Of a DNA stretch of 64,000 nucleotides, positions 670-64,000 are shown in pieces (the first letter of the stretch is position 1; each line of letters opens with the position of its first letter). The translations under genes were made by a program, and so were the position numbers. Source of the stretch: an uncultured Bacteroidia bacterium. GTDB taxonomy: Bacteria > Bacteroidota > Bacteroidia > Bacteroidales > UBA932. The stretch spans positions 1 through 64,000 of the forward strand of contig CACYWN010000008.1 of assembly GCA_902778105.1 (NCBI GenBank). The letters are read 5' to 3'. The notes beneath the pieces are model-generated. The model worked only from the letters and a program-made list of their open reading frames with translations. It was not told the origin of the DNA and ran no database searches.

Positions 670-700
670 CATGTCGTATAGGTTCTAGGAAATATCAGCG

Positions 701-747
701 TAAAGATACGTCATTTGGCCGAAAAGAAAAATTAATATTTATCTTTG
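701..747. promoter_or_regulatory. Divergent Bacteroidota promoters for DUF1349 gene and CotH gene
   Basis: On the plus strand TTTG (714-717), 22 bases, then TATCTTTG (740-747) matches the Bacteroidota sigma-ABfr consensus TTTG-N(~20)-TAnnTTTG and lies 11 bases before the CotH start. On the minus strand TATCTTTA (701-708) is a near-match -7 box for the DUF1349 gene. Confidence 0.6.
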
Positions 748-758
748 TTCCCCGGGAC

Positions 759-9664: not shown

Positions 9665-9670
9665 ACAGAT

Positions 9671-9704
9671 AGAAAAAGGGATGGCGGATCGGGCCCGCCA
9701 TCCC
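9671..9704 (-). terminator. Rho-independent terminator inside PUL1
   Basis: A perfect 10-bp stem, GGGATGGCGG (9678-9687) with CCGCCATCCC (9695-9704), 7-base loop, followed on the minus strand by TTTTTCT. It lies between the SusCD/lipoprotein genes and the GHL10-NAGPA-FAD genes, so it probably lowers expression of the enzymes relative to the surface proteins. Confidence 0.8.
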
Positions 9705-9717
9705 CGTGGAAAAAGAA

Positions 9718-11337
9718 TTATTCGATGGTGAATACGGACAGGCCGGCGCCGGGCACATAGGCGGAAATATAGATCTTGCCGCCGATGGTGCGGAGGATGC
9801 TGTTGCCTAGTCCATTTCCGTTCTTTTCAGCAGTGATGTCGTTCTCGACCGGGTCGCCGAGACCGAACCTCCAGGTTGCGCCAGGGGTTTCCAAAGAAGC
9901 CTTGAGCGTCTCGCCGTTGAGTTCGGTGATGCGTAACTGGCCGTCCTGGTAGCTGTTGCGGAGCACGACATAGGACATATACTCCTGCTCGTTGAAGGTA
10001 AAGAAGCGGATACCGTGGAGCGGATTGGCAAAATAGGCGCCGGGAAGCTCCAGCTGGGTGGTCGCCGTACTTCCGCTGATGGTGAAGAGACGGGATTTGG
10101 CCCCGGGACCTCCGCCGATATACTGCGTATCGTCATACTTGTAGATAGCGCTCCAGTTACCCTGCTTGGCGTCATAGCTCACCTTGGTCGCCGTCGTGTT
10201 AATAACACCGTTGGATACAGTGAACACATAGGCGGCCTGCTGCGAAGTAAAGTCGTGGAACCAGATCTTACCGTCTTTCCAGGTGCCTTCTACGGACATC
10301 TGGTCGCCGATACGGGCGGCTTCCGGGAGATGATAGGACAGGACTTTCGTCGGTTTGCCGTCCATGGAATCCCACTTCCAAATGACGAATTCGCTGGCCG
10401 TGGAGTTGACCATATTGCTCAGCAGAGTAACATAGCCGCCATTGCCGTCCTCCATGGAAGCAAGGGCGCAGGAGCCGAACACGCCACCGGCAGCATAGTC
10501 GCCCATATCCATCGCTTTGGTCTTGGTCGGGTCGGTGATGGAAACAGCATAGAGGGTCTTGTTGGTCTTGGCCAGATAGATATATTTATCATCCATTGCC
10601 ATCGTACGCATAGACTGGTCGCTGGCGGGAATGACCTCGGACCACCAGGCGTCGGCGCCGTCGGTAACCGGCTTGACGTAACGGCCCCACAGACGATTGA
10701 CCTTGTTGATACCGGTGGTAACGACCTTGATCGTCTCCTCTTTCGTGACATCATCGCAGACAAGCGTAAATTTCACTCCGTTAAGCTTGTCGCTGAAGTC
10801 GATGGCGTTGGGGGCCTCTTCCGTGGCGGAAGCAATCACTTCACCGCCAACCTTGACAATGGTATTGGCCGGAGAAACGACAAATTCGACGGAAACCGTG
10901 GTCAGGTCGGCCGAACCCTTGAGTTTGGCCGAGCCGTCGACGACATCCACCCCGTTCAGTTTGACGGAAACAAAGTGGGGTTGGGGTGCCGCTGCGGCTG
11001 CGCTGATGGCATATTCGGCCGAAGTCACGCCCTGGGTGATTTTCACCTTCTGGGTGGCGCCGGAAGCGTAGTTGAATGTGGATTTGGCCGGATTTGCGGC
11101 AGCGTCTGCGGGGAGACCGACAATTTCCACCGCCAGAGCGGAGAGTTCCGCCTTGTCAAGATAGTCCACCTCGATGTAAATGGTCTTGGCATTGTTGTCC
11201 ACCTGGACGAGATAATCCTGGGACAGATTGGACACCTTGACGTTCGCATTGCTCAGTGTCAGCGAGAACACCGGGTCTTCCCGCTTGCATGCCAATAACG
11301 ACAGCAGCATCAGAAAAGGGAGTGCAAATTTTTTCAT
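9718..11337 (-). CDS. PUL1 surface lipoprotein, DUF5018/DUF4623-like
   Basis: 539 residues. Lipobox SLLACKR. The N-terminal third holds repeated beta domains of the kind found in DUF5018 proteins (VQVDNNAKTIYIEVDY is characteristic). From about 215 the sequence turns into a propeller-like region (MRTMAMDDKYIYLAKT, LYAVSITDPTKTKAM, IWKWDSMDGKP), similar to DUF4623-type proteins. It lies two genes after SusD, where surface glycan-binding proteins are normally found, so a glycan-binding role is likely. Followed by a strong terminator. Family names are from memory and less certain than the lipoprotein and position calls. Confidence 0.7.
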   Translation of the reverse strand: MKKFALPFLMLLSLLACKREDPVFSLTLSNANVKVSNLSQDYLVQVDNNAKTIYIEVDYLDKAELSALAVEIVGLPADAAANPAKSTFNYASGATQKVKITQGVTSAEYAISAAAAAPQPHFVSVKLNGVDVVDGSAKLKGSADLTTVSVEFVVSPANTIVKVGGEVIASATEEAPNAIDFSDKLNGVKFTLVCDDVTKEETIKVVTTGINKVNRLWGRYVKPVTDGADAWWSEVIPASDQSMRTMAMDDKYIYLAKTNKTLYAVSITDPTKTKAMDMGDYAAGGVFGSCALASMEDGNGGYVTLLSNMVNSTASEFVIWKWDSMDGKPTKVLSYHLPEAARIGDQMSVEGTWKDGKIWFHDFTSQQAAYVFTVSNGVINTTATKVSYDAKQGNWSAIYKYDDTQYIGGGPGAKSRLFTISGSTATTQLELPGAYFANPLHGIRFFTFNEQEYMSYVVLRNSYQDGQLRITELNGETLKASLETPGATWRFGLGDPVENDITAEKNGNGLGNSILRTIGGKIYISAYVPGAGLSVFTIE

Positions 11338-11368
11338 AATTATTATTAATTAAATGGTTGATAATGTT

Positions 11369-11803
11369 TTATCGTGAGGATTTACAAGTCAGTTGATACG
11401 GCTTGACCGTTCCGTCCGCCGCCGTAATCCGGAAGTACAGGGTATTTCCACGCAGGTCGTAGAAACCTTCGAAACCATGGCCGAGCGGATTCCCGCCGGC
11501 ATCCGTCAGTTCCAGCACGGACGTCGGAGGAATCGTCGCTTCGATCCGGCAACGCTGCAGGGCGGCCGGGGTGAACCTTTCGTCGGCGGGGAAAGTGTAG
11601 CTGATCAGTCCCCTCTCCCGGTTGTACGTTCCCATCAGGAGACTCAGTTCCTGGCGGACAGAGGGGTTTTGGGGGTCGTAATAGACGAAGCACTTCAGCC
11701 CGATGAGGGAGGTGTCGTCCGAACGGACCGGAAACTGCAGTTTTTGGCAGGAGGCTGCCGCGGCGAGGAGCAGCAAGGCCGCAAGAATCCACTTTTTCAT
11801 CAC
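11369..11803 (-). CDS. Small lipoprotein of PUL1, unknown function
   Basis: 144 residues with lipobox AAAASCQK. The mature part is a single predicted beta domain (LKCFVYYDPQNPS, GLISYTFPADERFTP, FEGFYDLRGNTLYFRI). No family recognised with confidence; the stretch resembles the repeat domain seen in DUF5018-type lipoproteins. The start overlaps the SusD stop by ATGA, so it is translationally coupled to SusD and is probably part of the outer-membrane binding complex. Confidence 0.75.
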   Translation of the reverse strand: MMKKWILAALLLLAAAASCQKLQFPVRSDDTSLIGLKCFVYYDPQNPSVRQELSLLMGTYNRERGLISYTFPADERFTPAALQRCRIEATIPPTSVLELTDAGGNPLGHGFEGFYDLRGNTLYFRITAADGTVKPYQLTCKSSR

Positions 11804-13464
11804 CAGTCACTGTTTTGCTGCGCGAGGCGGTTGTTGTTGATTTCGGTCTGGGGAATCGGGAAGCGGTCGAAGTGTTCCGGATAGATGCGCGGACCCATCT
11901 CGCATACAATCAGTTCCGGCGAGAAGCGGCCTTCTCCGGAAGGATGCCACCAGACCCCGCTGTATTTCTTGCCGTCCAGCACCTGGGCTGCCCGGCCTGT
12001 ACGCCGCAGGTCCCAGAACCGGTGTCCTTCGAAGCACAGTTCGACGGCACGCTCCTTGAGAATCACATCCAGGGCCGTTTCCCACGAATTGATCGGGGCC
12101 GTATAAACTTCCTTTCCGAAACGGGCGGCACGCAGCGCATTCACCGTATTCCAGGCTTTGGCATAGTCTTTCTCCCAGGCGCAGCACTCCGCATAGATCA
12201 GCTGCATCTCCGCATAGCGGAATTCGATCCAGGGCTGATAGGAACCGTTGACCAGGAAATCTTTGTTCGACGGGTCCAGTAACTTGCGGATATAGTAGCC
12301 CGTAACCGTATTGCCCGGCGAATTGACCGAGCCGTAAGGCATATATTTCATATCCACGCCCCCTTCGTGACATTCCAGTTTGCGTCCCTTCCATTCGGCC
12401 TGGTTGTAAAGGATGCATTTCGAAAGACGCGGGTCACGCGAGGCTGCATTTTCCGGCGTGATGAAGCGGCGTGATGCATCCGAAATGTCGAAAGGCGTAC
12501 CGTCGGCGTTGTCGAACATATCCACGAATTCCTGGGTGGGGCCGGCAAGGCCGCTGCCGAAATTGCCGTTCAGGCAAACGTCTCCCGGCTGGGAATACTT
12601 GGCGTCGAACTGATGGGTCAGCACGCCGGAAATAAATCCGTAACCCCAGATCGCTTCCTTGGAATTCAGCGAGGCGAAGATGTCGTCATAATCTTCCTCA
12701 TAGCCATATCCGCCGTCGGTATTGATTTCCTCGACCGCCGCCTTGGCCAGGGCGTATCGTCCGGCATAGAGCATGGCGCGCGCCTTCAGGGCCAGCGCGG
12801 CATAACGGTGCAGCCGTCCGCGCGAGTCCGCCCGTTCCGGCAAATGGGAGACGGCAAAGTCCACGTCCTCTCGGATGAGGTCCCAGGAGTCTGACAGGTT
12901 CGCCCGGGCGTGGTCCTTCCCGTCTGCATTCATTGTCTTTATGTCCGTATAGGGGATGACGCCCAGGTCGTCCTTTTCAGAGGCGTGGCAACGCATGATC
13001 AGGAAATAAGACCAGGCACGGAAGAAGAGTGCTTCCGCCTTGAAACGGTCGGCCTCCTCCTGGGAGAAATGGCTCCTGTTCTCTTCCAGGCCATCCAGGA
13101 ATTCATTGATCAGGCGGATCCAGTTGTAGCAGGTCGTCCAGGCATCGAAGTAATTCTGCGTGGTGCGCTGCTGACCGTCGACGGTCATAATCAGGTTGCA
13201 GTCGCCGGTACCAGCCACGATGCCACCGTATTTGAGGATATCCGTCAGGCCGTCCGACATGTTGGCATTGCTGCCGCCCAGGGCGTGGGAGCCGAACTGC
13301 CCGAACTGGTAGATCTCCTTGTAGAAGTAGTTCAGGTATCTTTCGGCATTCTCCCTGTTCTTGAATGCAAAGGTCTTGTCGTAGCGGTCGGTCGGAGACA
13401 GATCCACCGAACTGCAGGCCGCGACGATCAGGGCCGCAAAAAGAAGGTTGGCAATCTTTTTCAT
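11800..13464 (-). CDS. susD: SusD/RagB-type outer-membrane lipoprotein (PUL1)
   Basis: 554 residues. Lipobox IVAACSS; SusD-like TPR fold shown by NYFDAWTTCYNWIRLINEFL, AEALFFRAWSYFLIMRC, GRLHRYAALALKARAMLYAG, WIEFRYAEMQLIYAECC and ERAVELCFEGHRFWDLRRTG, ending in the usual FPIPQTEIN(N)N. SusD caps the SusC transporter and captures glycan at the cell surface. Nine-base gap after SusC and overlapping the next lipoprotein, so one operon. Complete and normal in length. Confidence 0.96.
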   Translation of the reverse strand: MKKIANLLFAALIVAACSSVDLSPTDRYDKTFAFKNRENAERYLNYFYKEIYQFGQFGSHALGGSNANMSDGLTDILKYGGIVAGTGDCNLIMTVDGQQRTTQNYFDAWTTCYNWIRLINEFLDGLEENRSHFSQEEADRFKAEALFFRAWSYFLIMRCHASEKDDLGVIPYTDIKTMNADGKDHARANLSDSWDLIREDVDFAVSHLPERADSRGRLHRYAALALKARAMLYAGRYALAKAAVEEINTDGGYGYEEDYDDIFASLNSKEAIWGYGFISGVLTHQFDAKYSQPGDVCLNGNFGSGLAGPTQEFVDMFDNADGTPFDISDASRRFITPENAASRDPRLSKCILYNQAEWKGRKLECHEGGVDMKYMPYGSVNSPGNTVTGYYIRKLLDPSNKDFLVNGSYQPWIEFRYAEMQLIYAECCAWEKDYAKAWNTVNALRAARFGKEVYTAPINSWETALDVILKERAVELCFEGHRFWDLRRTGRAAQVLDGKKYSGVWWHPSGEGRFSPELIVCEMGPRIYPEHFDRFPIPQTEINNNRLAQQNSDW

Positions 13465-20070: not shown

Positions 20071-20754
20071 ATGAAGAAATATGTTCTTATGTTCCTCTGC
20101 GGAACGATGATTTTCTCCGGCTGCGGTATGAGCAACCTCGGAAAGGGCTCCCTTATCGGCTCTGGTGCAGGAGCCGCCATCGGTGCCGGTCTCGGCTACC
20201 TGATCGGCAAGGACGGCAAGGGTGCCGCCATCGGCGCCGCCATCGGTACCGCCGTGGGTGGTGGAACCGGTGCCATCATCGGCAACAAGATGGACAAGAA
20301 GGCTGAAGAACTGGCTGCCCTCGAGAATGCCCAGGTCGAGACCGTGACCGACGTCAACGGCCTCAAGGCCATCAAGGTCACCTTCGACAGCGGTATCCTC
20401 TTCGACTTCAACAAGTCCACCCTCAAGGCCGACGCCAAGAGGAACCTGGATAAGTTTGCCGCCGAGATGGCAGACCTTCCGGACACGGACATCACCGTGC
20501 TGGGCCACACCGACAACATCGGTTCCGCCGAAGCGAACCAGAAGGTGTCTGACGCCCGTGCCAACGCCGTGTCCAAGTATCTCCAGGGCAAGGGCATCGC
20601 TGCCAGCCGCATCGTCGCCGAGGGCCACTCCTACAACGATCCGGTCGCTGACAACAGCACCGAGGCCGGCCGCGCCCAGAACCGTCGCGTCGAGGTGTTC
20701 ATCTCCGCGAACGAGAACATGATCAAGGCCGCCGAGAACGGCACGCTGCAGTAA
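20071..20754 (+). CDS. OmpA-family lipoprotein with glycine zipper
   Basis: 227 residues. Lipobox MIFSGCGM; glycine-zipper stretches (about 26-75: GSGAGAAIGAGLGYLIG, AAIGAAIGTAVGGG) and an OmpA C-like domain (about 110-215) with TVLGHTDNIGS and the peptidoglycan-binding pattern N..VSDARANAVSKYL and NRRVEV. It should tether the outer membrane to peptidoglycan (Pal-like). Own promoter upstream and strong terminator downstream, so a single-gene transcript. Similar to YiaD-type proteins. Confidence 0.93.
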   Translation: MKKYVLMFLCGTMIFSGCGMSNLGKGSLIGSGAGAAIGAGLGYLIGKDGKGAAIGAAIGTAVGGGTGAIIGNKMDKKAEELAALENAQVETVTDVNGLKAIKVTFDSGILFDFNKSTLKADAKRNLDKFAAEMADLPDTDITVLGHTDNIGSAEANQKVSDARANAVSKYLQGKGIAASRIVAEGHSYNDPVADNSTEAGRAQNRRVEVFISANENMIKAAENGTLQ

Positions 20755-51877: not shown

Positions 51878-51987
51878 ACAGAACCGGAGATTCTTGCTTT
51901 ACGGGGCCTTCAGGCGGCATTTTTGGAGAAATTTCATAATAAAATAGACCTTTTTTACAAAAAAATTGGGGGTTGTTTTGCAATTTT

Positions 51988-52019
51988 GGACCGAAACCAA
52001 CGGTCCATTTTTTATTTTT
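51988..52019 (+). promoter_or_regulatory. Hairpin and T-rich leader before SusC (PUL2a)
   Basis: GGACCG (51988-51993) pairs with CGGTCC (52001-52006), followed by a T-rich run to about 52020, 30 bases before the SusC start. It looks like a terminator or attenuator in the leader. The stretch just upstream (51930-51985) is AT-rich and should hold the promoter. Confidence 0.5.
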
Positions 52020-52049
52020 TTGCGACCAACCACTAATCTAACTATTATA

Positions 52050-55000
52050 ATGAAAAGCATTAAAAGTTGTCTCCTTTCCCTCGCCGTCCTGGTTGCGGCC
52101 ATCCCTGCCATGGCGCAGCAGACGGAGGTGAGGGGAACGGTCACCGACCCTGCGGGGGAACCCCTGGTCGGTGTCACCGTCATGGCGGATGCCACGCACG
52201 CGACCATTACGGCAGCGAACGGCACCTACTCCCTGCGCGTTCCTTCGAACGCGGTTCTCACATTCTCTTCCATCGGCTACAAGACCGTGGAGGAAGCGGT
52301 CGACGGCCGTACCCTCATCAACGTGGTCCTCACCGAGGACGCGGAGTACCTCGATGAAATCGTCGTCGTCGGCTACGGTGTCCAGAAGAAGGCCACCCTC
52401 ACGGGTTCCATCTCCGCCGTCAACGGCGAGGAACTCAAGAAGGTCTCCACCGCCAATCTCTCCAACACCCTGGCCGGCAAGACGGCCGGCGTCATCGCCA
52501 ACATGCGTTCCGGCGAGCCGGGCGAGGATGACGCCGTGATCCTCATCCGCGGTAAGGGCACCCTCGGCGACACCAGCCCGCTCATCGTGGTGGACGGCAT
52601 CGCCGACCGTGACTTCTCCCGCCTGAACCCCGAGGACATCGAGAGCATTTCCATCCTGAAGGATGCTTCCGCCGCCATTTACGGCGCCCGCGCCGCGAAC
52701 GGCGTCATCCTCGTGACCACCAAGCGCGGAGCGGAAGGAAAGGTCCGGGTGAGCTACAACGGCAGCTACACCCTTTCCCAGCCGACCCGCGTTCCCAAGA
52801 TGCTGAACGCTTATCAGTACGGCACCTATGTGAATGAGTATGACGCCCAGGAGCGTCACGCCCAGGCCGGCCAGACCTACACGGAGGAAGTGTTGAACCA
52901 CTATCTCACCGGGGACGATCCGGTCAATTACCCGAGCGCCGACTGGTGGGGCGAGACCACCAAGAAGTGGGCCGGAAAGACCCAGCACAGCGTTTCCCTG
53001 AGCGGCGGTTCCGACCGGGTCTCCTTCTACACCTCCGCCCAGTACATGACCCAGGATGCCATCTACAAGAACAGCGCGTACGGGTACAATCAGTACCAGT
53101 TCGTCACGAACGTGGACGCCAAACTCAACAAATCCATCCGGATGTCCCTCGACATCCTGGGCAGGCAGGAGAACCGCAAGCGGGGCAACTCCTCCACGGA
53201 TTACCTGTTCACCTATTTCCTGACCACGTTCCCGGGCTCGGCTCCCTATTATCCCAACGGGCTGCCGCGCGTCGGCTATGACGGCCTCACGAACAACGCC
53301 GCCATCATGATGACGGATGCCCCGGGCCACAGCAACACCGTCCGGAACATCCTCACCCTGAAGCCGCTCCTGCACATCGACCTGGATGTCCTGACCCCGG
53401 GCCTGTACCTGGAAGGATACGCCGCCTTGGACATGATGTTCTCGAATACCAAGTCCATGGGCCAGCCCTTCGACCTGTACCAGTACGACCGCGCCGCCAA
53501 CGAGTATGTCAATCGTCACGACGACACGGGTGTCATCTGGGTGGACAATTCCGCGTCCAACTCCAGGACGGTCACGCTGAATGGACGGATCGGCTATCGC
53601 CGGACGTTCGCGGACCATCACCATGTCGATGCCTTCGCCGCCTACGAGCAGATGAAGTACGATTTCAGCTACATGTCCGCTTCCCGGACGAATTACCTTT
53701 CCGCGGCCATTCCCGAACTGTTCGCCGGCTCCGCCAAGCCCGAGGACAAGGACAACACCGGTTACTCCAACGCCGAGGCCCGCGTGAACTTCTTCGGCCG
53801 CGTGAACTACGACTACAAGGAGAAATACCTGGCTGAACTCACCTGGCGCTACGATGGTTCCATGAATTTCGCGCCCGGTCACCGCTGGGGTTTCTTCCCC
53901 GGTGTCTCCGCCGGCTGGGTCCTCTCCGAAGAGGACTTCTGGGAGCCCCTGAAGGGCACGGTGAGCTTCTTCAAGCTCAAGGGATCCTGGGGTATGATGG
54001 GTAACGACAATGTCGCAGCCTACCAGTACATGACCCAGTACCAGTTCACAAATTACGCCCCGTTCTTCGACGGTTCTCCGGTCCAGGGCTTCGAGAAAGT
54101 CCGCACCGCGAATCCGGATATCACCTGGGAGAAGGCCACGACCTACAATGTGGGTCTTGTCGCCGGATTCCTGGGCGGCAAATACACCCTGGAGGCCGAT
54201 TATTTCCTGTCGAACCGCCGGGACATCCTCATCACCCGCAACGCTTCCATCCCGACGTACTCGGGCCTGACCCTTCCGCAGGAGAACCTTGGAAAGGTGC
54301 GGAACCAGGGCTTCGAGCTCGTCGGCACCTACCGGGACAAGGCGGGGGACTTTGAATGGGGCGTGACGGGCAACGTCACGTATGCCCGCAACAAGATCAT
54401 CTACATGGATGAGGCCGCCGACACGCCCGACTGGCAGCGCCGCGAAGGCTATCCCATTGACAGCCAGCTCCTGTACGACGCTGTGAAGATCTACCAGACC
54501 GACGCCGAGGCCGCCGGTACCGTCCGGGTGGATGAAACGGTGGGCGCCGGTGACCTGATGTATGTGAACATGGATGGAAACGACGTGATCGATGCCAACG
54601 ACCGCATCCGCATCTTCGACACCGCCACCCCGCGCCTGATGTACGGCCTGACGCTCAATGCCGCCTGGAAGGGCATCGACGTAAACTGCTTCTTCCAGGG
54701 ACAGGGACTGTCCAAGCGCCTGGTGATGCCCACGATGAACATGCCCGTGGACTTCTACGAAGGCCGCTGGATCGATTCCGACGCCTCCACCCATGCGGAC
54801 GCCCGCTGGCCGCGCGCCCTCATCAAGCAGACCTACACCGACAAGTGGAACGGCCTGAGCAGCACCTGGTGGCTCCGGGATGCGTCCTTCCTGCGCCTGA
54901 AGTCCCTCGAAATCGGGTACACCTTCCCCAAGGACCTTGTCCGCCGCATCAACGTGGAGAATCTCCGGCTCTATGTGAACGGAAGCAACCTCTTCACCAT

Positions 55001-55130
55001 CGACAAGTTCAAGGTCGCGGACCCGGAGGTGGGCTATGTCAGCTCCAACGACCGGTTCTCCGTCAGCAACCCTATCCTCGGCTATCCGCTCCAGCGGATG
55101 ATCAACTTCGGCGTGAACCTCACTTTCTAA
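52050..55130 (+). CDS. susC: SusC/RagA-type TonB-dependent transporter (PUL2, first)
   Basis: 1026 residues from ATG 52050. Signal peptide, CarboxypepD_reg-like domain (about 25-105), LDEIVVVGYGVQKKATLTGS, plug (VILIRGKGTLGDTSPLIVVDG, SILKDASAAIYGARAANGVI) and a barrel ending MINFGVNLTF, the normal C-terminal beta signal. No STN domain, so no FecR-type signalling, in contrast to PUL1. Forms a complex with the SusD encoded 13 bases downstream. Imports oligosaccharides from the PUL2 substrate. Confidence 0.97.
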   Translation: MKSIKSCLLSLAVLVAAIPAMAQQTEVRGTVTDPAGEPLVGVTVMADATHATITAANGTYSLRVPSNAVLTFSSIGYKTVEEAVDGRTLINVVLTEDAEYLDEIVVVGYGVQKKATLTGSISAVNGEELKKVSTANLSNTLAGKTAGVIANMRSGEPGEDDAVILIRGKGTLGDTSPLIVVDGIADRDFSRLNPEDIESISILKDASAAIYGARAANGVILVTTKRGAEGKVRVSYNGSYTLSQPTRVPKMLNAYQYGTYVNEYDAQERHAQAGQTYTEEVLNHYLTGDDPVNYPSADWWGETTKKWAGKTQHSVSLSGGSDRVSFYTSAQYMTQDAIYKNSAYGYNQYQFVTNVDAKLNKSIRMSLDILGRQENRKRGNSSTDYLFTYFLTTFPGSAPYYPNGLPRVGYDGLTNNAAIMMTDAPGHSNTVRNILTLKPLLHIDLDVLTPGLYLEGYAALDMMFSNTKSMGQPFDLYQYDRAANEYVNRHDDTGVIWVDNSASNSRTVTLNGRIGYRRTFADHHHVDAFAAYEQMKYDFSYMSASRTNYLSAAIPELFAGSAKPEDKDNTGYSNAEARVNFFGRVNYDYKEKYLAELTWRYDGSMNFAPGHRWGFFPGVSAGWVLSEEDFWEPLKGTVSFFKLKGSWGMMGNDNVAAYQYMTQYQFTNYAPFFDGSPVQGFEKVRTANPDITWEKATTYNVGLVAGFLGGKYTLEADYFLSNRRDILITRNASIPTYSGLTLPQENLGKVRNQGFELVGTYRDKAGDFEWGVTGNVTYARNKIIYMDEAADTPDWQRREGYPIDSQLLYDAVKIYQTDAEAAGTVRVDETVGAGDLMYVNMDGNDVIDANDRIRIFDTATPRLMYGLTLNAAWKGIDVNCFFQGQGLSKRLVMPTMNMPVDFYEGRWIDSDASTHADARWPRALIKQTYTDKWNGLSSTWWLRDASFLRLKSLEIGYTFPKDLVRRINVENLRLYVNGSNLFTIDKFKVADPEVGYVSSNDRFSVSNPILGYPLQRMINFGVNLTF

Positions 55131-55143
55131 AATGGATCCGATC

Positions 55144-56847
55144 ATGAAAAAGATATTCAACTATATGCTGGTGGCCCTTGCGGCCCTTTCCCTCGGTTCC
55201 TGCACGAGTCTCCTGGACCAGGAACCGCTGGATTCCTTCACGGACGAGGCGGTCTGGGGCGACCTTTCCCTGGCCGAGACCTACCTGAACGCCCAGTACA
55301 GCTGCAACGGACTGCGGGGCGAGAATTCCAAGAACGTCCGCTATGCCTGCTTCATCGACGAGCTTTTCCACAAGCACGGTTATGGAACGGCCAACACCAC
55401 CCATACCGAGTATACCCCTTCCCAGCCGTACATCTGGTACTATGAGGAAGGATGGCGTCCCTGGAACACCTTCTACGGAAATATCTCCCGGGTGAACCTG
55501 TTCCTTGAGAATATCGACGGGGTCCCTGCCGAGGGCGAGGAAAACGTGGCCAAACGGAACCGGATGAAGGGCGAGGGGCTCTTCCTGCGTGCCTGGAACT
55601 ACCACATGCTGTACGCCATCTATGGCCGGGTTGTGCTGGTGGACCATGTCTATGACCTGGACGCCACCTTCGACGAAGGCCTGTCCGAGATGGACGACGT
55701 CGCTGATTTCATCCTGAAGGACCTGGATGCCGCCATCGGCCTGCTTCCCCTGGAGAACGAAGCCGGCCGCGCCACGAAGGGCGCCGCGATGGCCCTGAAA
55801 GCCCGTGTGCTCCTGTACAAGGCCTCCCCGCTGTTCGGAACACCGTCCACCGCTAAATGGCAGGCTGCGTCCGACGCTGCCAAGGCCGTCATCGACCTCG
55901 GCCTGTATGAGCTTGCCCCGGTCGAGGGTTGGGAGGACTACGCCGCCCTCTTCTATGACAACGACAATCCCGAAGGGATCTGGGTCAAGCACTACGACCC
56001 CAACCATCCGGATGCGTGGGACGATCCCGAGTCCACCACGATGGGTGTCGTGCACACCGTTCCCCCGGGACCGGGCAACCTGTATGAAGGCTGGGGCACC
56101 TTCGATGTGACCCAGAACCTCATCGACAAGATCCAGATGGCCGACGGCACGCCGTATGTGAAGCCCTCCGGCGTTACGACGGAGAATCCCTGGGAAGGCC
56201 GTGAAATCCGCCTGAAAGCCAACATCCTCTGCGACGGCGACCTCTGGGGTTATGCCGACGACCAGCGCGAGGTGGAAGTGTTCCTCGGCAGCGACGACTC
56301 GGTGGTCCCCGGCAAGGACAGCTCGGAGGGCGAAAACTGGTGGAACGCCTCCAACACCGGCTATTCCATGCGCAAAGGCATGGACCCGGACTATGACATG
56401 TACGGCACCACCCAGATGGACTGGCCCTGGTTCTATTTCCGTCTCTCCGAAATGTACCTGGACTATGCCGAATGCCAGATCGAGCTCGGGAACAACACCG
56501 AGGCCGCCAAGTACATCAACAAGATCCGCAACCGCGCCCTTCTTCCGGACTTCACCGGCGACATCCGGGCCGCCTACCGCTACGAGCGCCAGATGGAGCT
56601 GATGTTCGAGGGTCAGTGGTGGTTTGACAAGCGCCGCTGGAAGGAGATGGACCACGAATACAACGACGGCCCCATCCTGGGCGTGTCCGTCACCAAGTAT
56701 CCCGACGGTCACAAGACCTATGACCAGAACAATGTCATCGACCAGCGCGTCTGGCACGGAGATGCGTTCTACTTCTATCCCATCCCCCAGGATGAGTTGA
56801 ACAAGTCGGCGAAACTCAAGGAACAGTACAAGACATATCCATTCTAA
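55144..56847 (+). CDS. susD: SusD/RagB-type lipoprotein (PUL2, first)
   Basis: 567 residues from ATG 55144 (an in-frame ATG at 55132 adds four residues before the signal peptide). Lipobox SLGSCTS; SusD features are GEGLFLRAWNYHMLYAIYG, TKGAAMALKARVLLYKASPL, FRLSEMYLDYAECQIELGN, KIRNRALLPD and MELMFEGQWWFDKRRW, ending FYPIPQDELN. Glycan capture with SusC. Followed after 5 bases by the GH27 fusion, so the three genes form one operon ending at the terminator at 59367. Confidence 0.96.
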   Translation: MKKIFNYMLVALAALSLGSCTSLLDQEPLDSFTDEAVWGDLSLAETYLNAQYSCNGLRGENSKNVRYACFIDELFHKHGYGTANTTHTEYTPSQPYIWYYEEGWRPWNTFYGNISRVNLFLENIDGVPAEGEENVAKRNRMKGEGLFLRAWNYHMLYAIYGRVVLVDHVYDLDATFDEGLSEMDDVADFILKDLDAAIGLLPLENEAGRATKGAAMALKARVLLYKASPLFGTPSTAKWQAASDAAKAVIDLGLYELAPVEGWEDYAALFYDNDNPEGIWVKHYDPNHPDAWDDPESTTMGVVHTVPPGPGNLYEGWGTFDVTQNLIDKIQMADGTPYVKPSGVTTENPWEGREIRLKANILCDGDLWGYADDQREVEVFLGSDDSVVPGKDSSEGENWWNASNTGYSMRKGMDPDYDMYGTTQMDWPWFYFRLSEMYLDYAECQIELGNNTEAAKYINKIRNRALLPDFTGDIRAAYRYERQMELMFEGQWWFDKRRWKEMDHEYNDGPILGVSVTKYPDGHKTYDQNNVIDQRVWHGDAFYFYPIPQDELNKSAKLKEQYKTYPF

Positions 56848-56852
56848 CAGTT

Positions 56853-59345
56853 ATGATATTGTCCAAACGAATCTTAACCGCCGCGGCCGCACTGCTTCTG
56901 TGCGGCCCCGGCCTTTTCGCACAGGCCCCGCAGAAGCCGGAACCCCTTTCGGATTCCTTGTACCGGAGCCTGGCGGCGACCCCGCCGATGGGCTGGAACA
57001 GCTGGAACAAGTTCGGCTGCAATGTGAGCGAGAAGCTCATCAAGGAGATGGCCGACGCCATGGCCGCCTCCGGGATGGCCGACGCCGGCTACGAGTACAT
57101 CGTCATCGACGACTGCTGGCAGGTGGAACGCGATGCCGACGGAAACATCGTCCCCGACCCCGAGCGCTTCCCTTCCGGGATGAAGGCCCTTGCGGACTAC
57201 ATCCATGACCTGGGCCTGAAGTTCGGTGTCTATTCCTGTGCCGGTTCCCTGACCTGTCAGGGCCGTCCCGGCAGCAAGGGCCACCAGTTCCAGGACGCCC
57301 TCCAGTATGCGAAATGGGGCGTGGACTATCTGAAATACGACTGGTGCTCCAATGACGGCCAGAACGCCAAGGCCGCCTACCAGACCATGGCGGAGGCCAT
57401 CAAGGCCAGCGGTCACCCGATCGTCCTCTCCATCTGCGAATGGGGCGAGAACAAGCCCTGGGAGTGGGGCGAGGGCATCGGCCACCTGTGGCGGGTCACC
57501 CCGGACATCCGCGCCTGCTACGACTGTGCCTTCGACTGGGGCGGCGTGGGCGTGCTCCAGTGCATCGACGCCGATGCGGACCTGTATCCCTATGCCGGTC
57601 CCGGCCATTGGAACGACGCCGAGATGCTGGAAGTCGGCAACGGCGAGCTCACCTGGGACGAAAGCGTGACGCATTTCTCCATGTGGTGCATGCTGGCCGC
57701 TCCGCTGATGTCGGGGAACGACCTTCGCGAGATGGATTACAAGACCCTCCAGATCCTCACCAACAAGGAGGTCATCGCCGTGAACCAGGACCCGCTGGGC
57801 AAGCAGGGCATCCGCTTCATGGATATGGGCGACCAGGAAATCTGGGCGAAGCCCCTCGCGAACGGCGAGATCGCCGTCTGCTTCCTCAACCGGAGCTCTT
57901 CCGTGTGGAACCTGGACTACAACTGGCTGAACCAGACGATGTACTTCGCCCGGGACATCAACTTCCGGAAGAAGGAGTACACCGTCCGCGACCTCTGGGC
58001 CCACAAGGACCTCGGAACCAGCAAGGACCGCCTCAAGGCCGCCATTCCCGGCCACGGTGTGCTGATGGTGCGCCTGAGCCCCAAGAAGGCCGATCCGGTG
58101 GCCCTTCCCAAGGGCAAGGCCATCTACATCGGCGAAGAGGAGCGGAACATGGACTGGAACGATCCGGAAAGCAAGTGGAGCTACCACCGGATGTACTGCA
58201 CCCCGAACGTGGCAATCTTCTGGGAGAAAGGCTTCGGGGACGACCCGGCCAAGGCCCCGCAGTGCGACGGTCACGATATGACCTGGGACCTGCCGAACCT
58301 GGCCGCCAAGCTGGAGGAATTCTACAAGGTCTATGCAAACGACATGAAATTCATCCTCCCCGGCTCCAAGGCCGAAAAGTACCGGATGAACTGCTATGTC
58401 CTCTACGAGTACAAGGACGAGACGGCCTACGGCGGCTGCGTGGATGACGTCATCGGCGGCCTGTGGCTGACGCCCGGACGGATCCGCCGGACGGACGAAC
58501 TCAATGTCGTGGCCCACGAACTGGGACACTGCTTCCAGACCCAGATCATGTGCGACGGGAAGGGAGAGTCCGGAGGCGGCGGCCTGTACGAGATGGCCGC
58601 CCAGTGGATGCTCTGGCAGGTGAACCCGAACTGGCAGACCAGCGAGAAGTACCATTGGGATGCCTGGAACACATTGACCCACAAGGCTTTCATGGCCGGC
58701 GAGAATATGTATCACAGCCCCTATGTGCTGGAATACTGGAGCACGAAGCATGGCATCACCGTGATCGCCGACCTTTTCCGTGCCGGCAAGCGCGGAGAGG
58801 ATCCCGTCCAGATCTACAAGCGGATGTTCAACCTGTCGCAGGAACAGTTCAACGCGGAGATGTTCGACGCCTGCCGCCATTTCGTGAACTGGGACTTCGA
58901 CCGGGTCTGGAAGGAAAGCCGCCCCTATGCCTGCAAGAACGTGACGGCCCTGACTCCGCTCGGTGACGGATGGATGCGGGTCGCCGCGTCCAACTGTCCG
59001 GAAAACTACGGCTTCAACGCCGTGCCGATGCCCGTTCCCGCTGTCGGGAAAACGGTGACCGTGGACTTCCGTGGAGAGGCCGGGGCCGAAGGCTTCTCGG
59101 CCGTGAACACGGACAAGGCCGGCTGGCGCTACGGTTTCGTCGCTGTCGGGAAGGACGGGAAGTCGGTTTACTCAGACATGCATTCCGAGGTGAACGGCAC
59201 GGTCTCCTACACGGCCGACAGGGAACTGACCCACCTCTATCTCGTGGTGATGGGTGCGCCGGCGGAGCACTGGCCGAATCCTTCGGGCTGGCGCAGGAAT
59301 CCAGAGCCGGCCGCCCAGTGGCCCTATAGCATTCGGATTCGTTGA
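56853..59345 (+). CDS. GH27 alpha-galactosidase fused to an HExxH (DUF6055-like) domain
   Basis: 830 residues with signal peptide. GH27 part (about 30-410): PPMGWNSWNKFGCNVSE, YEYIVIDDCWQ, nucleophile Asp in LKYDWCSND (about 162), acid/base Asp in WRVTPDIRACYD (about 217), GPGHWNDAEMLEVGN and LMSGNDLREM. The second part (about 425-740) contains VVAHELGHCFQTQIM (HExxH at about 553) and a beta-sandwich like those of the BACON-HExxH proteins at 34395 and 36563. GH27 acts on alpha-galactose or beta-L-arabinopyranose; the second domain is a predicted metallopeptidase. Complete in length for both domains. Third gene of the SusC-SusD operon. Confidence 0.88.
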   Translation: MILSKRILTAAAALLLCGPGLFAQAPQKPEPLSDSLYRSLAATPPMGWNSWNKFGCNVSEKLIKEMADAMAASGMADAGYEYIVIDDCWQVERDADGNIVPDPERFPSGMKALADYIHDLGLKFGVYSCAGSLTCQGRPGSKGHQFQDALQYAKWGVDYLKYDWCSNDGQNAKAAYQTMAEAIKASGHPIVLSICEWGENKPWEWGEGIGHLWRVTPDIRACYDCAFDWGGVGVLQCIDADADLYPYAGPGHWNDAEMLEVGNGELTWDESVTHFSMWCMLAAPLMSGNDLREMDYKTLQILTNKEVIAVNQDPLGKQGIRFMDMGDQEIWAKPLANGEIAVCFLNRSSSVWNLDYNWLNQTMYFARDINFRKKEYTVRDLWAHKDLGTSKDRLKAAIPGHGVLMVRLSPKKADPVALPKGKAIYIGEEERNMDWNDPESKWSYHRMYCTPNVAIFWEKGFGDDPAKAPQCDGHDMTWDLPNLAAKLEEFYKVYANDMKFILPGSKAEKYRMNCYVLYEYKDETAYGGCVDDVIGGLWLTPGRIRRTDELNVVAHELGHCFQTQIMCDGKGESGGGGLYEMAAQWMLWQVNPNWQTSEKYHWDAWNTLTHKAFMAGENMYHSPYVLEYWSTKHGITVIADLFRAGKRGEDPVQIYKRMFNLSQEQFNAEMFDACRHFVNWDFDRVWKESRPYACKNVTALTPLGDGWMRVAASNCPENYGFNAVPMPVPAVGKTVTVDFRGEAGAEGFSAVNTDKAGWRYGFVAVGKDGKSVYSDMHSEVNGTVSYTADRELTHLYLVVMGAPAEHWPNPSGWRRNPEPAAQWPYSIRIR

Positions 59346-59563: not shown

Positions 59564-62500
59564 ATGAAACATTTTCATCAATTCTGTCTGACGCTCGCAC
59601 TGCTGCTGGCGGCCCTTCCTTCGATGGCGGCCGTGACGGTGCGGGGAACCGTCACCGACGAAGCGGGCGAGCCCGTGATCGGAGCCGGCGTTGTGGAAGT
59701 GGGAACGACGAACGGTGTCGTGACCGGTATTGACGGTACTTACGTCATTTCCGTCGCGGGCGCCTCCTCCGTCCTCCAGTTCTCCTGCATCGGCTATGAA
59801 ACAGTGGAAGAGACCGTCGGCAACCGCGGCGTCATCGACGTCGTGCTCCGCGAGGCCGTCTCCTTCCTCCAGGAAGCCGTGGCCATCGGTTACGGTACCC
59901 AGAAGAAGGCGGACGTCACGTCCTCGGTCCAGAGCGTGAAGTCCGGTGATTTCATCCAGGGTGCCGTCATCGACGCCGGCCAGCTCGTCCAGGGCAAGGT
60001 CGCCGGCCTGCAGATCACCATCCCTTCCGGTGACCCGACCTCCTCCTCCACCATCATGCTCCGTGGTACGTCCTCCCTGTATGGTTCTTCCCAGCCCCTC
60101 GTGCTCGTGGACGGCATTCCCGGTTCCCTCGCGACGGTCGCACCGGAGGACATCGAGTCCATCGACGTGCTGAAGGACGGTTCCGCAACGGCCATCTACG
60201 GTACCCGCGGTACCAACGGCGTCATCATCATCACCACCCGCAACGCCAAGCGCGAGATGCCCGCCACGGTCGAGTATTCCGGCTATGTGACGGCCTCCCA
60301 GTGGCTCAAGCGTCCGGACTTCATGACCGCTGACGACGTCCTTGCGCGCCGGGCGGAAGGATGGAGCTTCCAGGGCGCCAACGGCCAGCTCGCCGTCGAG
60401 AAGCCCACCGACTGGCTGAGCCTCATCAGCCGTACGGCCATCTCCCAGAACCACAACCTGTCCATCCGCGGCGGTTCCCAGCACAACTTCTACACGGCCA
60501 ACGTCACTTACAACGACAACAACGGTACCATCATCAACACGGGCCGCGACAACATCCGCGCCCGCGCCCTCGTCTCCCAGTACCTGTGGGATGACCGGGT
60601 GAAACTCACCGCCGAGGTGATGGCGAACGAAACCAACGTGGATTCCCGCGTGAACGCCTCCTACGCCTACCGTCAGGCCTGCATCCAGGGACCGCTCCAG
60701 CCGGTGTACAACGAGGACGGTTCCTACGTGACCCGCGACATCTACCTGTATGCGAACCCGATGACCCTCCTCAAGGAGCAGCTGGGCATGTACCGCAACC
60801 GCAACGTCCGCTTCAACGGCACCGTCGAGTTCAAGCCGTGGGATCCTCTCACCCTTAAGATGATGTATGTCCGCAAGGGCCAGAGCGGCCTGGGCGGCTA
60901 CTACAATACCCGTAAGGACGAAAGCACCACCAAGAGCGGCGCCAACGGCCAGGCCGGCCGCAGCACGTCCGACTATGTTGCCAACATGCTGGAACTCAGC
61001 GCCTCCTATGTGCAGGATTTCGGTCGCCACCATGTGACCGCCGTGGCCGGTTACTCCTATGAGGACGGCTACAGCGAGAATTTCAGCGCCTCCAACTGGA
61101 ATTTCCCGAACGACGGTTATCTGTGGAACAACCTGGGCAAGGGAAAGGCCCTCAAGGAAGGCAACGCCTCCATGGACTCTTACAAGGAGATGTCCAAGCT
61201 CATCGGTCTGTTCGGCCGTGCCACCTATAACTTCGACGACCGCTACCTGCTGATGGTCTCCCTCCGTGTGGACGGCTCCACCAAGTTCGGAAAGAACATG
61301 GAATGGGGTTATTTCCCGGGCGTTTCCGCCGGCTGGCGTATCAACAACGAGGACTTCCTCAAGGGCGTCAAGTGGCTGAACAACCTCAAGCTCCGCGCCG
61401 GTTTCGGTATCACCGGCATCGATGCGGGTGCCCCTTACCAGTCCCTCGCTTCCATCGACTACAGCGGCAACTACATGTACAACGGGGATTGGATCCAGCC
61501 TATCATCCCTACCCGAAATGCGAATCCCGACCTCCATTGGGAGAAGAAATACGAGTACAATGTGGGTTTGGACTTCTCCGTGTTTGACGAGCGTTTGAAC
61601 GGTAGCGTCGACCTGTATCGCCGCGACACCAAGGACGGCCTGTACTACTACTCCGTCCCTACCCCGCCGTGGACCTACGGTACCATCATGGCCAATGTCG
61701 CCCAGATCCGCAACGAAGGCGTCGAGGTGCTCCTCAACGCCATCCCGGTCCGTACGCGCAACTTCGAGTGGAACACGTCCGTCACTTTCTCGCACAACCG
61801 CAACGAACTGCTCTCCATCTCCAATGACCAGTTCAAGTCCGAAACCGACTATATGGACGCCGGTTATACCGGTGAGCCTATCCAGAAGACCACGCACCAG
61901 ATCAAGGTGGGACAGCCGATCGGCAACTTCTTCAACCTGCGTTCCGTGGGCCTTGACGCCGGCGGCAAGTGGGTCGTCGAGCGCCTGCGCCGCGATGCGG
62001 ACGGCAATGTGGTGTCGAAGTACTACGGCCTCGCCTCCGATGCCGGCTACAACGACTGGCAGATCCTCGGAAACGGTGTTCCGGACATCTACCTGAACTT
62101 CAACAACAACTTCCGCTACCGCAACTTCGACCTCGCCGTCACCATGCGCGGTGCCTTCGGGTTCCAGATCCTGAACTTCCAGAAGATGTTCTACGGCAAC
62201 CCGAACATCCTGTACAACACGCTTAACTGCGCCTTCGACCAGTTCGACGTCGTGGACGCCCGCACCGGCGAGAAGACCGGTGACAAGGTGAACCTTTCCG
62301 ACACCCAGCGCATCGTCAGCTACTACATCGAGGACGGCGACTACTGGAAGATCGACAACGTGACCCTCGGGTACACGCTCAACTTCAAGAACAAGCGGAT
62401 CATCGACCGCCTCCGCGTCTATGCGTCCGTCCACAACCTCGCCACCTTCACCCGCTACACCGGCCTGGATCCCGAGGTCAGGGTGACCGGTTTCGACGCC

Positions 62501-63058
62501 GGTACCGACGAGCGTGACAAGTATCCGACCATCCGTTCCCTCACCTTCGGCCTGAACCTCACCTTCGGCGGCGGCGGATCCGGCAAGCGCCCTGCGGCGT
62601 CCCGCGTGAGCACTACCGTTCCCGAGCGCATCGTGGAGAAGGTGGTGGAAAAGGTCGTGGAGAAGGAAGTGATCAAGGAAGTTCCCGTGGAAGTGGTCAA
62701 GGAAGTCAAGGTGGCCGCCCCCGGCGCCAAGTTCGAGGGTTCCTATGAGGACGACCTGTTCTTCCTGATCGGCAAGTCCGAGCTCCGTCCCGACGAGGCC
62801 TTCAAGCTGGGCCAGATTGCCCAGATCCTGAAGGACAACCCGGAGACCACCATCACCGTGACCGGATATGCCGACAGCGCCACCGGTACGGCCGGCATCA
62901 ACCAGGACCTCTCCGAACAGCGCGCCCGGGTCGTCGTGGACATGCTCAAGAAAGCGGGCATCGCCGCCGACCGCATCAGTTTCAAGGCCGAAGGCAGTGA
63001 CCGGAACGCTTCCCAGAGCCCCGAGTCCAACCGCGTCGCCGTATGTATTGTCAAATAA
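59564..63058 (+). CDS. SusC-type TonB-dependent transporter fused to a C-terminal OmpA domain (PUL2, second)
   Basis: 1164 residues. Signal peptide, CarboxypepD_reg-like domain (about 25-105), LQEAVAIGYGTQKKADVTSS, plug and a normal barrel whose last strand reads LTFGLNLTFGGGG (about residue 1005). The chain then continues in the same frame through a Val/Glu/Lys-rich linker (VEKVVEKVVEKEVIKEV, about 1022-1050) into an OmpA C-like domain (about 1065-1164): FFLIGKSELRPDEAFKL, TVTGYADSATG and LSEQRARVVVDML, with the Asp and Arg that bind peptidoglycan. Such OmpA domains normally follow OmpA porins, not SusC. The SusD partner starts 17 bases downstream. Confidence 0.93.
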   Translation: MKHFHQFCLTLALLLAALPSMAAVTVRGTVTDEAGEPVIGAGVVEVGTTNGVVTGIDGTYVISVAGASSVLQFSCIGYETVEETVGNRGVIDVVLREAVSFLQEAVAIGYGTQKKADVTSSVQSVKSGDFIQGAVIDAGQLVQGKVAGLQITIPSGDPTSSSTIMLRGTSSLYGSSQPLVLVDGIPGSLATVAPEDIESIDVLKDGSATAIYGTRGTNGVIIITTRNAKREMPATVEYSGYVTASQWLKRPDFMTADDVLARRAEGWSFQGANGQLAVEKPTDWLSLISRTAISQNHNLSIRGGSQHNFYTANVTYNDNNGTIINTGRDNIRARALVSQYLWDDRVKLTAEVMANETNVDSRVNASYAYRQACIQGPLQPVYNEDGSYVTRDIYLYANPMTLLKEQLGMYRNRNVRFNGTVEFKPWDPLTLKMMYVRKGQSGLGGYYNTRKDESTTKSGANGQAGRSTSDYVANMLELSASYVQDFGRHHVTAVAGYSYEDGYSENFSASNWNFPNDGYLWNNLGKGKALKEGNASMDSYKEMSKLIGLFGRATYNFDDRYLLMVSLRVDGSTKFGKNMEWGYFPGVSAGWRINNEDFLKGVKWLNNLKLRAGFGITGIDAGAPYQSLASIDYSGNYMYNGDWIQPIIPTRNANPDLHWEKKYEYNVGLDFSVFDERLNGSVDLYRRDTKDGLYYYSVPTPPWTYGTIMANVAQIRNEGVEVLLNAIPVRTRNFEWNTSVTFSHNRNELLSISNDQFKSETDYMDAGYTGEPIQKTTHQIKVGQPIGNFFNLRSVGLDAGGKWVVERLRRDADGNVVSKYYGLASDAGYNDWQILGNGVPDIYLNFNNNFRYRNFDLAVTMRGAFGFQILNFQKMFYGNPNILYNTLNCAFDQFDVVDARTGEKTGDKVNLSDTQRIVSYYIEDGDYWKIDNVTLGYTLNFKNKRIIDRLRVYASVHNLATFTRYTGLDPEVRVTGFDAGTDERDKYPTIRSLTFGLNLTFGGGGSGKRPAASRVSTTVPERIVEKVVEKVVEKEVIKEVPVEVVKEVKVAAPGAKFEGSYEDDLFFLIGKSELRPDEAFKLGQIAQILKDNPETTITVTGYADSATGTAGINQDLSEQRARVVVDMLKKAGIAADRISFKAEGSDRNASQSPESNRVAVCIVK

Positions 63059-63075
63059 TCAAGACCGAGCGAGTT

Positions 63076-64000
63076 ATGAAAAAGATATTATCTTCGATAG
63101 CGATCCTTGCGGTTTCCGCATCTTGCCTTACGGCCTGTTTCAACCTGGACGAAATCGCCTATTCCGAGATTCTCCAGGAGACCTTTGAGCCGACGGACCA
63201 GGACGTGGCCGCCCTCCTCGCGAGCTCTTACTCCGAGTTCGGCGCCATGATGGACTGGTATGGCATGTTCGATGCCCAGGAAGAGGCGGCGGACGTGGTC
63301 ATCACCCCGGCGCGCCCGAACGGCTGGGTGGACGGCGGTGTGTACCAGCGCATGCATGAGCATACCTGGTATGCCGACGATCCGGGTTCCCCGTCTTCCC
63401 TGTACTATTACGCTTTCGCCGGAATCAATGCGGCCAACCGCGTCATGGACCAGGTGAAGGACGGTTCCCTCAATACCGGAGACCTGCATGACTATATCAT
63501 CGACGAGCTCAAGGCCGTCCGCGCCCTCTGGTACGCCGTGCTCCTGGACAGCCATGGCAATGTCCCGATCGTGACCTCCTACAAGGATACCGAGCTTCCC
63601 CAGCAGAGCTCCCGCCGCCGCGTGTACGAGTTCGTGACCAAGCAGTTTCAGGAAGTGATCGACCACGGCGTCCTCAGCGAGGAAAAATCCGCCGCGACCT
63701 ACGGCCGCCTGAACATGTGGGGCGTCAAGATGGCGCTCATGCGCGTGTACCTCAACGCCGAGGTCTATACCGCCACCGAGCAGGGCAAGGGCACTCCGGC
63801 TTACGACAAGGCGCTCGCCCTTGCGGAAGATATCATCGAAAACGGACCGTATTCCCTGTCCTCCAAGTACCTGGACAACTTCCAGGCCTTCGATGACGCT
63901 TCGGCCGTGAACAATCCCGAAATCATCTTTGCCATCCCTTACGACAACACCTACAACACCGGTGAGCACGTCTTCTGCATGGCGATGAAGTTCTATCCCC
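63076..64000 (+). CDS. susD: SusD/RagB-type lipoprotein, partial (3' end beyond the window)
   Basis: About 308 residues from ATG 63076 to the window end. Lipobox SCLTACFN. SusD signatures: YYYAFAGINAANRVMDQV, DELKAVRALWYAVLLDSHGN, RLNMWGVKMALMRVYLNAEV and PEIIFAIPYDN, as in the RagB family. 17 bases after the SusC-OmpA stop, so they form a pair. Normal so far; the rest lies outside. Confidence 0.93.
   Translation, partial: MKKILSSIAILAVSASCLTACFNLDEIAYSEILQETFEPTDQDVAALLASSYSEFGAMMDWYGMFDAQEEAADVVITPARPNGWVDGGVYQRMHEHTWYADDPGSPSSLYYYAFAGINAANRVMDQVKDGSLNTGDLHDYIIDELKAVRALWYAVLLDSHGNVPIVTSYKDTELPQQSSRRRVYEFVTKQFQEVIDHGVLSEEKSAATYGRLNMWGVKMALMRVYLNAEVYTATEQGKGTPAYDKALALAEDIIENGPYSLSSKYLDNFQAFDDASAVNNPEIIFAIPYDNTYNTGEHVFCMAMKFYP

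Follow-up and report, generated by a model that had tools for sequence, protein, structure and literature searches.

The window analysed here, a stretch of 64,000 nucleotides (nt) from an uncultured Bacteroidia bacterium, encodes a SusC-type transporter whose open reading frame runs on, behind the transporter barrel, through a linker into an OmpA-like domain. The reading that we favour, at a probability of roughly 0.7, is that this protein is a SusC importer with an exchangeable linker–OmpA wall anchor, and that the anchor has moved as a cassette between SusC families of one genus. The first-pass annotation of this DNA, made from the letters alone, had singled out one odd SusC–OmpA fusion. The fusion is real and goes far beyond what chance would give, but it is one instance of a cassette that occurs on many SusC lineages and appears to have been swapped between their barrels.

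The frame of the fusion gene (Table 1) is free of internal stops, both in the DNA and in the list of open reading frames. Residues 25–1001 match the SusC/RagA family model TIGR04056 (profile positions 2–981 of 981; 719.3 bits against a cut-off of 368.25; NCBIfam), and residues 1066–1155 match the OmpA model PF00691 (expectation value (E) 1.7e-17; 64 bits against a gathering score of 27.2). The proposed fusion in one frame is thus confirmed, with both families over their cut-offs. The SusC/RagA signature TIGR04057 lies at residues 196–226 (E 5.5e-17), the Pfam TonB barrel match covers residues 405–848, and the last barrel strand, FGLNLTF, ends at residue 1001 (window position 62566), exactly where TIGR04056 ends. 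The barrel that precedes the OmpA domain is that of SusC and not the small 8-strand barrel of OmpA/OprF-type proteins, and a Pfam search of the protein at E 0.01 gave no SLH domain, the plug and TonB barrel being found instead.

The linker had been described as a Val-Glu-Lys stretch of about 30 residues. The repeats are there and occupy roughly 30 residues, but only in its middle, and the whole linker is about 60 residues long. Across 82 fusions the linkers measure about 47–116 residues (median 55), approximate values because their limits are set by the ends and starts of two queries derived from the window. Eleven fusions (L218–L222 and L367–L372) carry alanine-rich, coiled-coil-like linkers in place of Val-Glu-Lys, and their OmpA domains form a group of their own. 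It had also been noted that the barrel would need to be assembled with a C-terminal extension behind the beta signal. This is no real obstacle, as ordinary OmpA is built alike, with its domain extending C-terminally behind the beta signal of the barrel.

Linker and OmpA domain together form a cassette of about 0.5 kb that some genes have and their close orthologues lack. The closest such pair is formed by the window SusC and its orthologue in genome G003: their barrels share 85% DNA identity, and the G003 gene closes with FGLNLTF and a stop codon, with susD directly behind it. Homology in a blastn alignment ends at window position 62566 and resumes at 63076, which leaves 509 nt in the window versus 15 nt in G003. 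Ten more pairs of fused and unfused orthologues have a similar gap, with a net 440–578 nt present or absent; in these, homology breaks off no more than about 40 nt from the barrel end and returns in the span from 9 nt upstream to 114 nt downstream of the cassette end, at or just inside susD. (Two of the 11 pairs share one unfused gene, and the pair from G020 shows the insert only after an offset correction of the barrel end.) In pairs with unrelated barrels (n = 4) it is the reverse: the stretch of DNA in common has its start within −47 to +55 nt of the barrel end and its end 2–46 nt past the stop codon. The statement in the first-pass annotation that SusC proteins normally end at the barrel holds in this sample. 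Of 106 unfused SusC frames, 95 end precisely where the match to the SusC queries ends and the remainder within 15 residues of that position; one of the 106 has no stop codon in the fetched DNA.

Fusions of this kind recur across the genus. At all 83 places fetched, spread over 34 of 300 genus genomes, SusC and OmpA lie in one open frame, which exceeds 1000 residues in 79 of them. The 83 places comprise three known fusions and 80 chosen for a cassette match from a genus-wide search, and six additional fetched places hold fusions as well (6/6). The 86 places beyond the three known were taken from the listed matches, at least one more long-frame row (G164:C3, cut at a contig end) being left out; one extra fusion (L279, in G020) was found only via a barrel search and stands outside the 34-genome tally. 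The unfused rows come from the top hits of barrel searches and from fetched neighbours, and all rows are a chosen sample. By the genus search with the first three cassettes, at least 94 of 300 genomes have a match at E 1e-20 or better, standalone OmpA proteins included; the genus counts are lower bounds, with at most 11 candidates scored per genome, among the matches listed. In a scan of public genomes, fusions made up 19 of 76 loci, some of them on the same contigs as the genus set. A ruminant host is given in the record titles of 12 of these 19, and most of the rest carry isolate codes of the RUG or RUI kind, which we take to denote rumen genomes. At one place in the sample (G165:C19; L147, L224), the barrel alignment of a fused SusC crosses a single in-frame TAG.

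Barrels and cassettes do not follow one another. Clustering at 45% identity divides the 83 fused barrels into 22 groups. On a FastTree tree of 185 barrels, 79 of them fused (many long branches; one short fused row left out), the fused state needs at least 26 changes. Within one orthologous SusC family (38 rows, 12 fused, one long branch), it needs 10 changes, as many as with shuffled labels (mean 10.3), and the approximately unbiased test rejects a topology with one fused clade (p-AU 6e-66). Trees of the OmpA domains, by contrast, separate fused from standalone domains with 2 changes over 185 rows and 1 over 206. A mixture-model tree of 118 representatives needs 2 changes, where shuffled labels need about 37; its rows are the 47 fused and 75 other domains left after thinning, with the window row added and the distant rows L117, L128, L131, L133 and L135 dropped. 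The same discord is seen in individual pairs. Two fusions of one genome (L184 and L178) have OmpA domains that are 86% identical on barrels that are 29% identical, and another two (L172 and L216) have OmpA domains that are 42% identical on barrels that are 85% identical. The orthologue of the window fusion in G311 (L144; barrel 90% identical in amino acids) carries a cassette that is 84% identical in DNA to that of the window and 90% identical to that of L068, whose barrel is only 23% identical in amino acids to its own. Overall, cassettes 75–90% alike in DNA occur on barrels 23–34% alike. One standalone OmpA protein (L391, in G162; a frame of 398 residues) has a cassette-like Val-Glu-Lys linker; on the domain tree it groups with other standalone domains, on a long branch. 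A protein of this type is a possible source of the cassette module.

The OmpA domain itself has the features expected of a wall-binding module. GYADSATG and LSEQRARVV are both present, and the three residues of the wall-binding motif, Asp, Arg and Asn, are conserved without exception in the fused domains (93 of 93), in agreement with the conserved peptidoglycan-contacting Asp and Arg proposed at first. Standalone OmpA domains have the Asp in 105 of 113 and the Arg and Asn in 113 of 113. In OmpA of Acinetobacter baumannii, D271 and R286 bind diaminopimelate (PMC6572160), and the Asp and Arg of the fused domains are, judged from the motif, probably their equivalents. The ratio of nonsynonymous to synonymous substitution rates (dN/dS) of the OmpA part is 0.09–0.32 in nine pairs, indicating purifying selection. 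Structure prediction, which had been proposed as a check, gave a SusC barrel, a linker and an OmpA fold. In the C-terminal model, the OmpA part has a predicted local distance difference test score (pLDDT) of about 80–97 and the linker is unstructured; the best fold matches of this model are the peptidoglycan-binding domain of OprF and 9uu2, lower ones include OmpA with bound diaminopimelate peptide and Pal, and TolB/Pal complexes are also among the matches. The full-length model (pLDDT 64; predicted template-modelling score 0.60) shows barrel, unstructured linker and OmpA fold, and is closest in fold to SusC and RagA structures; at this moderate confidence it supports the fold only.

From the motif and the models, it is most likely that the OmpA domain anchors the SusCD complex to peptidoglycan. 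The C-terminus of SusC is periplasmic, as is the domain of OmpA, and because both face the periplasm the topology of a wall anchor fits. The fusion, its domains, the Asp and Arg and the SusD neighbour of the first-pass annotation all stand, and wall anchoring is the best reading of them. In this mechanism, the barrel and its SusD lid would import substrate in a TonB-driven manner; the chain would leave the last strand on the periplasmic side, pass through a flexible linker of about 60 residues and end in the OmpA-like domain, which is predicted to bind peptidoglycan non-covalently. The cassette would have been passed between SusC genes of many families within a genus of gut Bacteroidales, the simplest route being recombination with one end in the conserved last strand or the linker and the other at the start of susD, so that an importer could be tethered or untethered without a change to its barrel. 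The anchor might benefit the cell by making the outer membrane firmer, by holding the importer on the cell and out of vesicles, or by placing it near TonB. A further idea, which we put forward only tentatively, is that the cassette works as an exchangeable switch, in which recombination adds or removes the anchor and so sets which SusCD complexes stay fixed and which drift, cluster or leave in vesicles.

Several other explanations must be considered. The first-pass annotation had itself named an assembly join of a susC and an ompA gene as the case against the fusion. The genomes are indeed multi-contig assemblies (the window lies on C8, one of 48 contigs of a genome estimated to be 84% complete), and two contigs of G172 carry what is seemingly one fusion twice (L170 and L171, of equal frame length and score), a sign of assembly duplication. 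A mis-assembly or binning artefact is nevertheless extremely improbable and we reject it, because the in-frame fusion recurs at every fetched place in 34 independent genomes, the OmpA part is under purifying selection, and a near-identical window allele is found in G085 (L143, a locus cut by a contig end), with 98% DNA identity over 456 nt of cassette and 99% amino acid identity over the barrel. Moreover, a second SusC–OmpA fusion lies on contig C15 of the window's own genome (L009; 1172 residues), with a different barrel and its own SusD-like neighbour. It is also very unlikely that the fusion arose once, long ago, and descended by vertical inheritance, the OmpA part being lost many times and never exchanged. 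The grouping of the fused OmpA domains would agree with such a history, and each loss would take just one deletion. It is disfavoured, however, by the contrast between the barrel and domain trees and by the swaps described above, in which barrels and OmpA domains are alike to opposite degrees and cassette DNA is 90% alike on barrels that are 23% alike; moreover, the 15 nt of the unfused gene in the closest pair hold no remnant of a cassette.

The other two alternatives concern what the domain is for. In one, the cassette is a promiscuous passenger that spreads because recombination at the conserved susC end and the start of susD permits it, and that hardly affects import or the envelope. Its patchiness even among close orthologues, the 206 of 300 genus genomes without a match at E 1e-20, and the other OmpA proteins that remain as possible tethers are all compatible with this. 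The invariance of the motif residues and the low dN/dS values speak against it, as does the concentration of the domain in G172, where SusC-length frames hold nine of the 13 OmpA matches (two of them seemingly one gene twice), and we consider it unlikely. In the other, the OmpA domain docks a periplasmic partner, such as TonB-side proteins, a chaperone or a periplasmic enzyme, in place of peptidoglycan. OmpA-like folds can bind other partners, as the TolB/Pal complexes among the fold matches illustrate, and the linker is probably long enough to reach one, but the Asp and Arg that bind diaminopimelate are invariant, and we regard docking as unlikely too.

An exchangeable wall anchor on SusC importers remains the preferred reading, although a number of points weigh against it or restrict it. 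The 118-row tree places seven standalone OmpA domains, on a long branch, inside the fused group. All trees were built quickly or with FastTree and contain long branches; those of the domains are based on about 107 columns, and many of their forks are weak. Changes on a tree cannot separate gain from loss. In this one-genome-per-species sample, the closest cassettes on unrelated barrels are 90% identical in DNA, too far apart to demonstrate ongoing exchange. Among fusions with different barrels, OmpA identity has the same median within genomes (62%; 97 pairs) as between them (62%; 2777 pairs); because same-genome pairs are no more alike, we do not propose that the cassettes spread mainly by conversion within genomes. 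The trait is dispensable, since the near-complete genus genomes G013, G016 and G023 show no OmpA match on a SusC-length frame. Finally, G000, G172, G149 and G003 have OmpA matches on other, shorter frames too, so that the fusions are not the sole OmpA proteins of these genomes, a notion that we reject for them, and not the sole possible tether.

Among the matches listed, the wider searches gave no fusion outside the window's genus. An order-wide cassette search of 393 genomes gave, among the matches listed, no frame longer than 824 residues outside the window's genome. In a phylum-wide search of 395 genomes with the full-length protein, in which two SusC candidates were scored per genome, none of the matches listed from outside the window's genome extended past model position 1066, which precedes the OmpA part. 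The limits of these searches leave room for fusions outside the genus.

Table 1. Features of the fusion gene and its neighbours in the window.
Feature	Window position	Residues	Strand	Basis or remark
Ordinary susC without OmpA domain	51966..55130		+	TIGR04056, 936.7 bits, to last residue; no OmpA match (Pfam)
susD of the neighbouring pair	55132..56847		+	PF07980, E 1.9e-49
Alpha-galactosidase-like (Melibiase_2) protein with C-terminal DUF6055, between both susC genes	56853..59345		+	Pfam
susC–ompA fusion gene	59564..63058	1164 plus stop	+	Single open frame, ATG to TAA
CarboxypepD_reg-like N-terminal domain (CarbopepD_reg_2, PF13715)	59639..59839	26–92	+	Pfam, E 4.1e-12
TonB plug domain	59906..60223	115–220	+	PF07715, E 5.3e-17
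TonB-dependent beta-barrel to last strand FGLNLTF	60224..62566	221–1001	+	TIGR04056 end; model strands to residue 1001; fold matches
Linker with Val-Glu-Lys/Val-Lys-Glu repeats in the middle	62567..62758	1002–1065	+	Sequence; model pLDDT about 25
OmpA-like domain	62759..63055	1066–1164	+	PF00691; conserved Asp/Arg/Asn; model fold matches
Cassette (linker, OmpA domain, stop, short spacer)	62567..63075		+	509 nt; blastn against the 85%-identical G003 orthologue
susD partner	63076..64000, runs beyond window		+	Lipoprotein-like ATG start; start in open reading frame list 63043

The SusD partner placed next door by the first-pass annotation is indeed there: the gene downstream of the fusion matches SusD_RagB (E 6.8e-15) and also SusD-like_3, and its ATG lies 17 nt beyond the stop codon of the fusion. 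By a profile grown from the SusD proteins of the window's genome, 78 of 81 fusions are followed by a SusD-like gene, at a median distance of 10 nt, and for this reason the fusions look like working importer pairs. The Pfam families SusD-like_3, SusD_RagB, SusD-like_2 and SusD-like match 56, 54, 52 and 21 of the 81 next genes, with overlap. One fused SusC type (L173, L179, L182 and L186; frames of 1081–1089 residues) is flanked by a SusD-like gene on both sides. Around the window fusion, the locus has DUF6055 in two clear proteins and one weak match, the clear one in the window being the alpha-galactosidase-like protein of Table 1; at L011, positions 8467–10053 and 10034–12115 hold DUF6055 matches, one weak and one clear, downstream of the susD of the fused susC. 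Elsewhere in the window, a further OmpA-domain frame of 231 residues is found at 20191–20685 on the plus strand.

With the known SusC/RagA transporters (the levan and dextran SusC, RagA) the fusion has in common the plug, barrel, signature motif, N-terminal domain and SusD neighbour, but it carries about 160 extra residues with an OmpA domain, whereas the ordinary SusC/RagA proteins of our sample end at the barrel. Its OmpA domain has the same fold as the OmpA-like proteins Pal, YiaD and PorE, none of which is, to our knowledge, an importer. OmpA has a barrel of eight strands. This is the barrel also given for OmpA of Flavobacterium johnsoniae (PMC12611786). OmpA/OprF-type proteins, with small barrel, linker and domain, have a C-terminal OmpA domain of the same family as that of the fusion, and the Val-Glu-Lys linker occurs in at least one standalone OmpA protein of the genus, the L391 protein described above; the fusion differs from them in its TonB-dependent transporter barrel and SusD partner, and the fused domains are largely a group of their own. 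In OmpM, the wall-binding part is an SLH domain, and neither a TonB plug nor a SusD is known for it. OmpM of the diderm Firmicutes is nevertheless the nearest published idea that we found, as one protein likewise serves as nutrient channel and outer-membrane tether (PMC10628300); it is a porin, and cassette exchange is not mentioned for it in the available part of that report. Among the open-access titles and abstract openings listed in our literature search there was no SusC–OmpA fusion.

SusCD importers rank among the major outer-membrane complexes of gut Bacteroidota and determine on what food these bacteria can live. For F. johnsoniae, the two most abundant components of the outer membrane are described as OmpA and a SUS complex (PMC12611786). 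If a class of wall-anchored importers exists as proposed, it would link nutrient import to the mechanics of the envelope, as OmpM does in another phylum. The fused and unfused orthologues of one importer are natural matched pairs, and because they exist, the effects of tethering on uptake, mobility, vesicle sorting and stiffness could be tested with one 0.5-kb cassette. The cassette is also a clear case of a domain moving between outer-membrane barrels, and through it the bacteria of this genus may change, over evolution, which of their importers are tied to the wall.

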